DNA of 64,000 nucleotides from contig SZOZ01000009.1 in assembly GCA_030263455.1 (NCBI GenBank), positions 1 through 64,000 on the forward strand, written 5' to 3'. The translations under genes and the position numbers were made by a program. This stretch comes from Synechococcales cyanobacterium CNB (GTDB lineage: Bacteria; Planctomycetota; Phycisphaerae; Phycisphaerales; UBA1924). Positions 40,922 to 44,251 of the stretch are shown in pieces (position 1 is the stretch's first letter; every line of letters starts with the position of its first letter). Under the pieces are notes generated by a model. The model had not been told where the DNA came from. It searched no databases and saw only the letters and a program-made list of their open reading frames with translations.

Positions 40922-41512
40922 GTGGCGGACATGCCGCCCAGCGTCGTGATCCTGGCGGGGCCGAACGGGGCCGGGAAGACGACGGCCGCGCCGTTCGTGC
41001 TGCGGGACGCTCTTGGGGTCGACGAGTTCGTGAACGCGGACGACATCGCCCGCGGGCTATCGGGGTTCGCTCCGGAGCGCAGTGCTGTCGCGGCGGGGCG
41101 GATCATGCTCGCCCGGATGCGCGAACTGGCGGGCGTTCGGGCGACATTCGCGTTCGAGACAACGCTGGCGACGCGGTCGTACGCGCCGTGGCTGTCGCGC
41201 ATGCGTCAGACCGGGTACCGAGCGACGCTGGTGTTCCTCTCCCTGCCGTCGGCAGATGCGGCGGTCGAGCGCGTCCGCGGCCGGGTCGCGGAGGGCGGCC
41301 ACGACGTGCCGGAACCGGTCGTGCGGCGGCGCTATGCGCGGGGGTTGCGGAACCTGTGGAACCTCTACCTGCCGCTGGCGGATGACTGGAGCGTCTACGA
41401 TAATGCGGGTCGAACACCTGACCTGATGGCCGTTGGCAGCGGGATGATTGTTGAGCGAGTTGTCCTTCAGTCGCAGTGGAAGAGGCTCCGAGGAGGCTGC
41501 GGCGATGAATAA
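40922..41512 (+). CDS. Zeta-toxin-like P-loop kinase
   Basis: A 196-residue protein of the zeta-toxin/AAA_33 group. Walker A is ILAGPNGAGKTT (about 10-21). FVNADDIARGL, FAFETTLATRS and RVRGRVAEGGHDVPEPVVRR match the conserved blocks of chromosomal zeta-like proteins. Zeta toxins phosphorylate UDP-N-acetylglucosamine or related sugars and are held by a small antitoxin. It starts with GTG three bases after lepA, with GGAGG upstream, so it is translated in series with lepA. Whether it is toxic is not shown. Confidence 0.85.
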   Translation: MADMPPSVVILAGPNGAGKTTAAPFVLRDALGVDEFVNADDIARGLSGFAPERSAVAAGRIMLARMRELAGVRATFAFETTLATRSYAPWLSRMRQTGYRATLVFLSLPSADAAVERVRGRVAEGGHDVPEPVVRRRYARGLRNLWNLYLPLADDWSVYDNAGRTPDLMAVGSGMIVERVVLQSQWKRLRGGCGDE

Positions 41513-41669
41513 GCCCATTGCGAACCCGGCTCGGGATCAATCACGCCGTCCGATTGGCGAAGTCATCCGCGATCGCGAGATCATGCGCGAAGCGCTGCGG
41601 CGGGCAGCGGAAGTCGCGGAGCGTAGGAAGGCGTTGCGGCCGCAGCCGTCGTCAAAGGCGGAGCACTGA
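41505..41669 (+). CDS. Small partner of the zeta-like kinase, possible antitoxin
   Basis: A 54-residue, highly charged helical protein (REIMREALRRAAEVAERRKA). It begins with ATG after CGAGGAGG, and its first eight bases overlap the zeta-like gene, so the two are coupled. Small charged proteins are commonly encoded next to zeta-like genes and may act as antitoxin. It has no recognised DNA-binding fold. A longer reading from 41448 has no ribosome site. Confidence 0.6.
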   Translation: MNKPIANPARDQSRRPIGEVIRDREIMREALRRAAEVAERRKALRPQPSSKAEH

Positions 41670-41782
41670 GCACTCCACCGTAGGCGGCGATTATACCGCA
41701 TCCGCCTCGCAGGGTGGGTTGCATTGGACCGAGCCGCTGGTCTACGTAGCTTCCTGCTCGATCAGCGGATTGAAGTCCCTCC

Positions 41783-43519
41783 TCAATGTGACTGCTCAGA
41801 CAATCCCGCTTCAGGGTGTTGCCCATCAGATCCCAGATACTCATTGAGCCGTGTTGCGATGAGGCGCCTCCGCTCTGCCAAGAAGTCGGAATAGCGATCC
41901 ACATGCAGCACATCTTCACGGGTCGGTATGCACTGGGCGTCGAAGACCTCGACGCCCTGGCGCTCAACTATCCCGGGAACGTAATCGACTGGTGGCTTAT
42001 CGCTGATCGTCCGGTTGGTCTTCCCTCCAATGAACGTGAGGTTTGCTATATCGTCTGCCTCTCTGGACGTGTACCGTCCTTTCAGCACCGACTTGGCGAA
42101 GAAATGGTGAAACTGAAGCCGGTGCTGGGAACTGCTATGGTCGAGTGAAATGGCGAGATTCGATCGCCAGTCCCGAGCACCTGCTGCCCGAAATGCAAGG
42201 AACATCGTTTTGAAGAGGGCGCTTCGCTGATTGCGGCCGACGAGATCCTCCGGCGCCACGTCGAGGCGCCCCACCTGCTGCCGAAGTCGCTCAATCAGAT
42301 CGTCCGCGCCGCGTCCGTCCCGCAGTGTTGCCAGATCCTGATCCAGAATGGTTTCGCTCGATCCTCGCGAGTATCGCCCCTTTGCGTTCGCAACGAGTGT
42401 CCAGTGTCGAAGGCGCCGGGCATCCTCAGACGTAATGCTGTACTCTCGCTTGTGTCCGTAGTACCCGAGCGTGACAAGCAGGAACGGCGATGACAGCAGC
42501 ACCGGGCTGCCGATCCCAACATTGCTCCGAGCGAAATCGATGGCGAACTCCATGCCGGGCACGCACGCTTCCCATGCCGCTTTCAGGTCATTGGCAGAGA
42601 GTCCGCCAACCGTCAGGAACCGCGACTGACCCGTCGCGAATACGATGAGATTTTTCAGGTGCAGGCCAAGGTCGAGGTCAAAGCCCGTCTGCGCGCACTG
42701 CTCCTGGAAGCCCTGGAACACTTTGAGAGCACCGCGCCACTTCGCGGTGATCTGAGCGAGCGCAAGGTCCGAACTCCGGAGCTTCGCGCCCAGTGAGTTG
42801 ACGCGGACAAATATCTCCGTCACTTCATCGTATGAGAGCGACCGTTCCAGAATGTCCATGCGGTACACGTAGTTGCGAACGCCGCGGAGCCTGGCCAGTC
42901 GCTGGCTATACTTCTTGAAGCGTGGATCGCTGACCCGTTCGATGCCGGCTCTCTCAAGAAATGGCGCGTCCTCATCGGTCTTGAAGACGTCCGTGACTCT
43001 CACCCAGTGAGGATGCTGTTCCAGCTTCTTCGTCGCAACCACGAATGTCATGCGATTCAGACGCGCATCCAGTTCGTTTTCGCTGGAGTCCGTCTCGTCG
43101 TCGAAGAGATCGCTCTCGTCGTCCTTGCTATCTTCGTTGACCTCGGTAACCACGGCGAGCTCTTCCGGGTGTTCAAGGTTGAACAGCAGCTCGATGGGTC
43201 TCTTGCGCCAGCGCACGTTGACGGGTTTTCCTCGGATGACGGCGGCGAGCGATGTGAGTCGCTGCTGGCCGTCGAGCAGGAGCAGAGCGCTCTGGTAGGG
43301 GTTTCTCTGCTGCTCGACAGCGAACTCCTGAAGCGGGACCGCTTCGTCGGTCTCCCAGAGCAGGATCGCACCCGACGGGTAACCGCGGTAGAGCGAGTCG
43401 AGGAGATCCCGCACGCGCGTCGATTGCCACACATACCGCCGCTGCATTTCGGGCAGGCGCAACTCACCCCGTTCGATCTTGGCTACGAGTTCCTCAACGC
43501 TGGCTTCGCCCTTTGCCAC
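41783..43519 (-). CDS. DUF262/HNH (GmrSD-like) protein, probable defence
   Basis: A 578-residue protein. The N-terminal DUF262 domain has PEMQRRYVWQSTRVRDLLDS, then LYRGYPSGAILLWE and the nucleotide-handling motif LLLDGQQRLTSL (about residues 80-91), as in GmrS. An acidic linker (SKDDESDLFDDETDSSENEL) and FVRVNSLGAKLRSSDLALAQ follow. Near the end, LQFHHFFAKSVLKGR and FIGGKTNRTISDKPP resemble the DUF1524 HNH nuclease of GmrD, but with Ala in place of Pro in HHIFPK. GmrSD enzymes are type IV restriction systems acting on modified phage DNA. Sampled lines give 53-62 percent GC, below its neighbours, which suggests transfer. Confidence 0.88.
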   Translation of the reverse strand: MAKGEASVEELVAKIERGELRLPEMQRRYVWQSTRVRDLLDSLYRGYPSGAILLWETDEAVPLQEFAVEQQRNPYQSALLLLDGQQRLTSLAAVIRGKPVNVRWRKRPIELLFNLEHPEELAVVTEVNEDSKDDESDLFDDETDSSENELDARLNRMTFVVATKKLEQHPHWVRVTDVFKTDEDAPFLERAGIERVSDPRFKKYSQRLARLRGVRNYVYRMDILERSLSYDEVTEIFVRVNSLGAKLRSSDLALAQITAKWRGALKVFQGFQEQCAQTGFDLDLGLHLKNLIVFATGQSRFLTVGGLSANDLKAAWEACVPGMEFAIDFARSNVGIGSPVLLSSPFLLVTLGYYGHKREYSITSEDARRLRHWTLVANAKGRYSRGSSETILDQDLATLRDGRGADDLIERLRQQVGRLDVAPEDLVGRNQRSALFKTMFLAFRAAGARDWRSNLAISLDHSSSQHRLQFHHFFAKSVLKGRYTSREADDIANLTFIGGKTNRTISDKPPVDYVPGIVERQGVEVFDAQCIPTREDVLHVDRYSDFLAERRRLIATRLNEYLGSDGQHPEAGLSEQSH

Positions 43520-43633
43520 GCCGTAACTCCTGGATCAAGGGAGTGAATCGTACCCGATACCGCTTGGTTGGGCCCCGACTCCCAGACATGCGGTGATTTC
43601 GGCAAGGGCACATCCAAGCAGATCACGCCGGCC

Positions 43634-43684
43634 CGCCGGTACAAGCCATCCCCTCAGCCGCTCCCTCACGGTCGCGGCTCGTTG
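43634..43684 (+). repeat. Dispersed repeat family 1, copy 2
   Basis: This copy begins CGCCGGTACAAG and ends with CAGCCGCTCCCTCACGGTCG and CGGCTCGTTG. AGCCGC and GCGGCT form a six-pair stem. It lies upstream of the DUF262 gene and downstream of a lipoprotein gene on the same strand. Confidence 0.6.
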
Positions 43685-43708
43685 GGCGTGGGGTGTGGGG
43701 CGTGTGGA

Positions 43709-44251
43709 TCACGGGCCGCGCTTTCGCTTCAGCGCGAAGGCGGTCGGTTCGGTGAGTTTGCCGTTGCGGTCGTAGGATCGCCAGTCCTGGCGGATGGTGC
43801 CGTCGCGGAGGAGGGTGAGTGTCACGCGGCCCATGTAGTGGTCGTGCTCGGGGCGGAGGTTGGAGACGGAGTCGAAGTCGAACTCGTAGACCGTGCCCTC
43901 GGCGGTTTCGCGCACTTCGTGGGCGATCATGCGGGGCTGGTTGCCGGCGGCGCAGTAGTGGGTGAGGACGAGATCGCGGCCGTCCATGTGGTAGAGGTTG
44001 GTCATCTCGTGCGGGTGACCGGGGAACATGATCTCACGGACAACGGAGCCGGCGGAGGAGACGGTGAAAACGGCCGTGTAGGGCACGTCGGCGTCGGGGG
44101 AAGCGGGTTCCCATTCGCCCTCGAGGGCGGCGATGCGGGCGAACATTTCGGCGTCGCGCTCGGGCGAGGCGGCGCGGCGCGCGGGCTGCGACGAGCACGC
44201 GGCGATGGTGAGCAGCGCGATGCAGACGACGGTGAGCGTGGCACGGGTCAT
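43709..44251 (-). CDS. Lipoprotein of unknown function
   Basis: A 180-residue lipoprotein (lipobox IAACSS, cysteine about residue 19). The body reads as a beta-rich domain: IAALEGEWEPA, PYTAVFTVSSAGSVVREIMF, YHMDGRDLVLTHYCAAGNQP and MGRVTLTLLRDGTIRQDW. The sequence resembles small lipocalin-like or DUF1579-like proteins that carry an opening G-x-W strand and a DxxxLTHYC-like segment. No catalytic role is evident. No operon partner is clear; the sorted exported protein gene lies upstream on the same strand. Confidence 0.7.
   Translation of the reverse strand: MTRATLTVVCIALLTIAACSSQPARRAASPERDAEMFARIAALEGEWEPASPDADVPYTAVFTVSSAGSVVREIMFPGHPHEMTNLYHMDGRDLVLTHYCAAGNQPRMIAHEVRETAEGTVYEFDFDSVSNLRPEHDHYMGRVTLTLLRDGTIRQDWRSYDRNGKLTEPTAFALKRKRGP

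Follow-up and report, generated by a model that had tools for sequence, protein, structure and literature searches.

What does the lone, GC-poor gene at 41783-43519 encode, how did it come to its present place, and does the unusual wording of its HNH motif change what the product would do? These questions were addressed in the 64-kb stretch of planctomycete DNA that carries the gene (hereafter the window), in the genome to which it belongs and in the relatives of the gene elsewhere. We propose, with a probability of roughly 0.7, that the product is a single-chain, NTP-gated, modification-dependent DNA nuclease that resembles GmrSD and BrxU (HEC-05), and that its gene entered a variable site of the chromosome on its own, by horizontal transfer.

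The open reading frame encodes 578 residues from a GTG start without an internal stop, and the sequence AGGAG sits 7 nt 5' of this start. The gene and its parts are located as follows.

41783..43519, minus strand: gene of a DUF262-HNH protein, 578 aa, HEC-05/BrxU-like (open reading frame, Pfam, PADLOC, profile and fold match)
43527..43531, minus strand: likely ribosome-binding site AGGAG (sequence)
42749..43498, minus strand: DUF262 / GmrSD_N domain, residues 8-257 (PF03235, 102.7 bits, cut-off 33.2)
43259..43273, minus strand: DGQQR motif, residues 83-87, putative NTP pocket by analogy with BrxU (sequence, alignment A3)
43085..43144, minus strand: acidic loop of low confidence, residues 126-145 (model pLDDT <50)
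42014..42109, minus strand: HNH catalytic stretch, H471 to N502 (alignments, model)
42092..42109, minus strand: HHFFAK, residues 471-476; relatives of the same type usually read HH[IVLF][FY]P (alignments)

Domain search against Pfam assigned residues 8-257 to GmrSD_N with an E-value of 3.7e-29, and a genome-wide scan, which put the domain in the same place, found this gene to be the only GmrSD_N match in the whole genome (3.2 Mb, 17 contigs). The C-terminal GmrSD_C family stayed below threshold (14.1 bits against a cut-off of 23, E 0.043), and NCBIfam gave no match for the 578-residue protein. Three DUF262 motifs are present, namely QR (Q26-R27), DGQQR and FxxxN (F237/N241). Each of them, as well as S42, H471, H472, N493 and N502, is found in 28/28 rows of alignment A3, which comprises the window's protein, 23 of the 32 viral-contig open reading frames that passed (33 were tried, and L072 was too short) and four of the six loci from genome_contigs. 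The PADLOC model HEC-05 (PDLC04151) matched at 2.5e-47, with residues 5-563 covering profile positions 25-594 of 600. Excerpts of PMC11411939, the sole relevant paper on HEC-05 that we found, equate this group with BrxU, as "HEC-05 (= BrxU)".

Structural evidence points to the same group. A single-sequence search of the PDB up to an E-value of 1 returned BrxU alone (7p9k/7p9m, 4.6e-14), and the A3 profile matched BrxU 7p9k at 9.8e-51 across nearly the full length, with S42 and DGQQR on their BrxU counterparts and H472-F-F-A-K on BrxU H-I-Y-P-K. The AlphaFold2 model built from A3 has a mean pLDDT of 86.6 and a pTM of 0.81; the HNH stretch is confident, with a pLDDT of about 91-93 in the motif region, and confidence is low at residues 126-145 and 566-578. 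Both fold searches placed BrxU first: Foldseek with an E-value of 3.3e-15, a TM score of 0.40 and 19% identity, and VIA with a Z score of 21.7, an RMSD of 14.7-16.1 Å over 480-491 residues and 18% identity. The large RMSD suggests that, in the predicted model, the parts match BrxU and the domain arrangement or the linker differs. Next in the VIA list came SspE chains with Z scores of 11.0-12.8 (7.0 for 6jiv) and a chain of the DndI complex (9jfl, 11.1). Further down, at Z scores of about 4-6, stand ParB folds and the HNH domains of Cas9, a pattern to be expected of a protein with these two halves; a fold missing from this list was not counted as excluded. The preliminary description had read the gene as a GmrS-like DGQQR domain joined to an HNH-like end in a possible single-chain type IV restriction enzyme. 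Both ends stand, the first by its motif and PF03235 score, the second by H472, N493 and N502 and by profile and structure matches to BrxU that reach the C-terminus. The reading as a single-chain, probably type IV-like restriction enzyme is supported as well.

The likeness to BrxU, a GmrSD-family type IV restriction enzyme, extends over a single chain with a DUF262 domain, a helical middle and an HNH domain. According to excerpts of PMC8565348, changes of BrxU S42, Q101, R102, D474 or H475 abolish phage resistance, and N519A and E528A weaken it. Residues S42, Q86, R87 and H472 of the window's protein stand at BrxU S42, Q101, R102 and H475, whereas His471 replaces BrxU Asp474 (a pairing by position beside the aligned His and not by alignment, since HMMER places a two-residue insertion directly ahead of this His) and Ala475 replaces a BrxU Pro. 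The two proteins further differ in overall sequence (18-19% identity), in the acidic loop at residues 126-145 and in domain arrangement, as judged by the large RMSD. Moreover, the window's gene does not lie beside a BREX system, and the PglZ family has no match in its genome. Compared to GmrSD as first defined (GmrS PF03235 plus GmrD PF07510), the protein shares a DUF262 domain with QR, DGQQR and FxxxN and an HNH-type C-terminus, but HHFFAK departs from the narrow GmrD motif (E/D)H(I/L/V)xPQ given in excerpts of PMC4619093, and the GmrSD_C match is below its cut-off. The TgvAB system of cholerae VPI-2 also combines DUF262 with an HNH nuclease; however, it consists of two adjacent DUF262 proteins, both of which are required, and here one GmrSD_N match exists in the whole genome. 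With its DUF262 domain, its HNH on the same chain and its HEC-05 profile match, the product looks like a BrxU/HEC-05-like protein, judging by sequence and model, and we file it as a member of an already known group and not as a new kind of defence.

SspE (7drs, 7dri, 6jiv) and the DndI complex (9jfl) share the two-part plan, which raises the question whether the protein could instead read phosphorothioate (PT) DNA in the manner of SspE and nick phage DNA only in a PT-producing host. SspE is indeed the next fold match after BrxU, and the PADLOC SspE model matches at 5.1e-6. The PT-sensing residue reported in excerpts of PMC9646914, SspE Tyr30, aligns, however, with Met25, so that Tyr30-Gln31 becomes Met25-Gln26 here, and relatives carry M, F, I or L at the Tyr30 position. 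In addition, DndB, the only PT-related family searched, has no match in the genome. An SspE-like PT reader is thus very unlikely.

The same preliminary description read HHFFAK, in place of HHIFPK, as a variant HNH motif and suggested that the nuclease may be altered. To place the motif we compared A3 with A2, an alignment of 26 rows of which 12 form A1; the three alignments share rows, and none of them, nor the tree, includes the homolog in G004, which is in two pieces, or L026, whose frame is broken. Position 473 in A3 is I in 17 rows, V in 5, F in 3 and L in 3. Position 475 is Pro in 27/28 rows of A3, the single Ala being that of the window, in 10/12 rows of A1 and in 23/26 rows of A2, where the window, L002 and L037 have Ala. 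The His pair 471-472 reads HH in 20/26 rows of A2, DH in 3 and HP in 3, and the position of N502 is Asn in 23/26; the HH of 28/28 rows in A3 partly reflects how the rows were selected, because the row L121, which reads DHIFPK, was left out. From these counts, HH counts as a normal form within the branch, and the sole rare change is Pro475 to Ala, which lies outside the catalytic set. The motif is therefore a variant at Ala475, but HH is common and the change from I to F recurs in several relatives; an altered nuclease is not supported as described, as H471, H472, N493 and N502 are all present.

If the Ala at 475, together with Phe473, spoiled the HNH site, the protein would be a nuclease-weak or nuclease-dead derivative, either decaying or acting only as a DNA-binding NTPase. 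The rarity of the change and the existence of degenerate relatives speak for this: L033, L034 and L035 have HP in place of HH, with P or G at the last Asn (N502), and these DUF262 relatives are possibly nuclease-dead by their residues. Against it, the catalytic residues named above are intact, Ala475 recurs in L002 and L037, and the motif region is modelled with confidence. The dN/dS ratio is 0.07-0.12 in four of six pairs, at saturated dS (1.7-2.7), the other two pairs giving no value; such low ratios indicate that the gene is under purifying selection. A loss of nuclease activity is thus unlikely in our view.

Some phages carry modified bases in their DNA. In the working that we propose for a single-chain, modification-dependent nuclease, the DUF262 domain would bind and hydrolyze NTP through DGQQR and Ser42, by analogy with the chemistry of BrxU; the binding of modified-base DNA would be coupled to this NTP cycle; and the C-terminal HNH domain would cut the modified DNA, as HNH enzymes do. 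By the same analogy, H472 may serve as the general base, H471 and N502 may sit at the metal, and N493 may be structural. Since the gene is in an orphan position, no adjacent partner gene would be needed. The NTP gating, the modified-DNA trigger and the HNH cutting are modelled on the BrxU and SspE literature, as far as excerpts of PMC8565348, PMC9646914, PMC10952713 and PMC12409352 describe them. Counted against this reading are the sub-threshold GmrSD_C match, the TM score of 0.40, the high RMSD, His471, Ala475, the saturated dS with two pairs lacking a value, and the lack, among the window genes scanned, of an R-M or other recognised defence gene next to this copy.

Composition bears on how the gene arrived. 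The lower GC content seen at first inspection is borne out, at 59.5% compared to 63.9-70.2% in 12 Pfam-confirmed genes of the window. A 1-kb GC profile falls to 59-60% at the gene and stays at 63-73% in all steps wholly outside 41-44 kb. The 1737-base stretch with the lowest GC in the 64 kb (59.2%, in steps of 10 bases) starts at 41761 and overlaps the gene, and the lowest such stretch without overlap has 63.5%. Codon use is foreign as well: GC3 is 0.709 compared to 0.832-0.944 in the 12 genes, and the codon log-likelihood gives a z of -16.5 compared to -8.0 to +5.4, each of the 12 being left out of its own reference. In a cruder comparison with 43 open reading frames picked by length and composition, the gene had the lowest GC of 44 (z -4.8), with a z of just -0.6 for GC3 and -1.3 for codon use; this set was replaced by the 12 genes because it visibly includes antisense false frames. 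A scan of 41400-43800 for sigma-70-like promoters found none against 0.4 expected, which says little for a planctomycete, and gave four terminator-like sites against 1.4 expected, none of which was used.

The site itself was compared with two congeners, G001 and G002, and is described by three features.

41672..43548, no strand: stretch without counterpart in congener G001 (acquired); G001 and G002 carry a nucleotidyltransferase gene there (genome comparison)
40922..41512, plus strand: left neighbor, an AAA_33 / zeta-toxin-like P-loop kinase gene, flank, not acquired with the gene (PF13671 2.6e-9, PF06414 7.9e-6)
41505..41669, plus strand: small ORF (54 aa) that follows the kinase gene; part of the flank, retained in the congeners (comparison)

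The flanks are syntenic in both congeners, in the order of lepA (96% identical between G001 and the window), the P-loop kinase gene, the small ORF and, after it, the region of 43709-44251. For G001 the homology ends at 41671 and restarts at 43549; for G002 it ends at 41648 and restarts at 43659. The gap in the congeners holds a lone nucleotidyltransferase gene (PF01909, 4.6e-11 and 7.9e-11; L043:12734-13075 and L044:1535-1846), behind which G002 also has an open frame of 242 codons with a likely membrane start. Given the syntenic flanks, one gene stands in place of another, and the DUF262-HNH gene would have been acquired at this spot, behind lepA and the zeta-like kinase gene. Neither codon use equal to that of the neighbors nor an ortholog in the same place was found, by the 12-gene reference and in the two congeners, and horizontal acquisition, as first surmised, is well supported by the sequence comparison. 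Between 41641-41790 and 43501-43620 no identical word of 9 to 19 bases is shared in either direct or inverted orientation, so transposon-like ends were not seen; no tRNA lies in the 64-kb window. Among the loci compared, the flanks of the gene have nucleotide matches at an E-value of 1e-3 in the two congeners only, so that the loci showed no shared mobile unit larger than the gene itself.

Two further observations concern the flanks. A 23-base dispersed repeat, CGCTCCCTCACGGTCGCGGCTCG, lies at 43659-43681, close to the right-hand end of the acquired stretch. As the homology with G002 restarts exactly there, the repeat is a possible breakpoint marker. With at most two mismatches it has 28 copies in the window's own genome, 16 in G001, 50 in G002, 10 in G034, 19 in G004 and 2 in G035, and its reversed control has none in all six. 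On the other side, at 40922-41669, the zeta-toxin-like/AAA_33 kinase gene, the end of which is overlapped by the 54-aa ORF, is possibly one half of a toxin-antitoxin pair with that ORF, and both lie behind lepA in the two congeners.

A native gene of the lineage, low in GC by descent and lost by the congeners, would require no acquisition. The GC content of several relatives is similar (0.59-0.62 in 8 of 16 other genes measured), and composition alone does not suffice against this explanation. However, the two congeners have a different gene in common at this spot. Moreover, among the 34 genomes of other genera in the family, only G034 (73%) and G004 (55% and 52%, in two pieces) have a relative above 50% identity, in both cases on a contig other than that carrying lepA. 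Native descent is therefore extremely unlikely.

Relatives of the gene are scattered. Matches at an E-value of 1e-3 or better occur in 14 of the 61 genomes searched, the window's own included, and of 392 genomes drawn from the phylum, 16 have a match with an E-value of at most 1e-20. Four of these, again with the window's own, exceed 70% identity over almost the entire protein; in a fifth, G262, there is a piece of 59 residues at 81% with two stops. The genome_contigs search gave six relatives with 68-79% identity in the best segment, of which three are labelled Planctomycetota and one each Armatimonadetes, Parvibaculum and Akkermansia, although labels of metagenome-assembled records may be wrong; the Akkermansia-labelled one matches in frame at residues 1-253 only. 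Counts across these searches overlap, because L021/G228 and L022/G369 look like the same records. Two of 168 matching plasmid records exceed 60% identity (Rhizobium rhizogenes, 65%; Planctomycetes K2D, 64%). An alignment-based scan of IMG/VR contigs gave at least four relatives at 67-71% among the 80 of 180 relatives kept, a second alignment-based scan of viral contigs kept 12, and a viral-contig scan with the single protein as query found nothing; six matches in phage records were all below 60%. Altogether, relatives at 64-77% identity occur in records of other phyla, on two plasmids and in IMG/VR contigs. In a tree of 17 rows, in which 7 of the 14 inner forks are open, the Armatimonadetes copy falls within a set of copies from Planctomycetota (100/98), and the window's row lies outside every starred group. 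The G004 homolog (L059:8688-10393) consists of two adjacent pieces in different frames, covering residues 1-362 and 366-562, which may reflect a frameshift, an assembly error or a natural split.

The neighborhoods of the relatives, with crude gene calls, were examined in 11 loci in which at least one neighbor was scanned, mostly in part; L022, L024, L066, L068 and L069 were left out. Restriction-modification (R-M) methyltransferases adjoin the gene in four of the 11: in L058 and L064 a DrmD-like helicase accompanies a type III-like methyltransferase and helicase, L062 has HsdM before and HsdR after the gene, and L065 has HsdR and HsdM upstream. L059 adjoins DpdE- and DruE-like helicases, and L026 adjoins Schlafen/AlbA_2 and SNF2-PLD genes. 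No R-M gene and no such helicase or Schlafen gene was seen among the partially scanned neighbors in L021, L025, L060, L063 and L067. The window's copy, too, has no R-M or other recognised defence gene alongside among the window genes scanned. Excerpts of PMC11411939 already place DUF262 genes inside type I R-M loci and Hma clusters, and in the TgvAB comparison state that such genes can lie within type I R-M operons; this embedding is in print and is not claimed as new. Large serine recombinase genes lie near two homologs (L058:6902-8500, Pfam-confirmed; L068:1342-2286, by eye) and are a possible vehicle for them.

The four R-M loci could mean that the protein works as an accessory, together with a modification enzyme, within an R-M or helicase-methylase cluster, and that it has lost its partner here. 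The window's genome (G000, 3.2 Mb) does have, elsewhere, 14 over-cut-off matches to the N6_N4 DNA methyltransferase family PF01555, in at most 13 open frames on contigs C1, C2, C3, C5, C8, C12 and C15. HsdM-type N6_Mtase gave a single match, below its cut-off; the genome has many methyltransferases of one type. On the other hand, five loci lack an R-M gene among their scanned neighbors, and the HEC-05 and HEC-06 proteins are said in excerpts of PMC11411939 to function independently. Dependence on a lost partner is accordingly improbable, and we retain the lone, single-chain nuclease as the preferred reading.

As it stands, this is a fairly ordinary acquired defence gene, mainly of use for annotation. 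Through it the BrxU/HEC-05 group gains a conserved branch that spans phyla, in the little-studied Planctomycetota, and at one chromosomal spot a small accessory gene is seen cleanly exchanged for a defence-type gene. A bolder proposal, tentative and rather doubtful, is that the HH-type branch around this gene, whose members are 64-77% alike to it and occur in records of Planctomycetota, Armatimonadota and Alphaproteobacteria, on plasmids and in IMG/VR contigs, represents a portable nuclease encoded by one gene and having its own specificity. With the BrxU Asp of the metal site replaced by His, and with an additional acidic loop, this nuclease might read a modification new for the family and travel alone or in type I or type III-like R-M clusters. 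If the branch does read another modification, the range known for type IV enzymes would widen.
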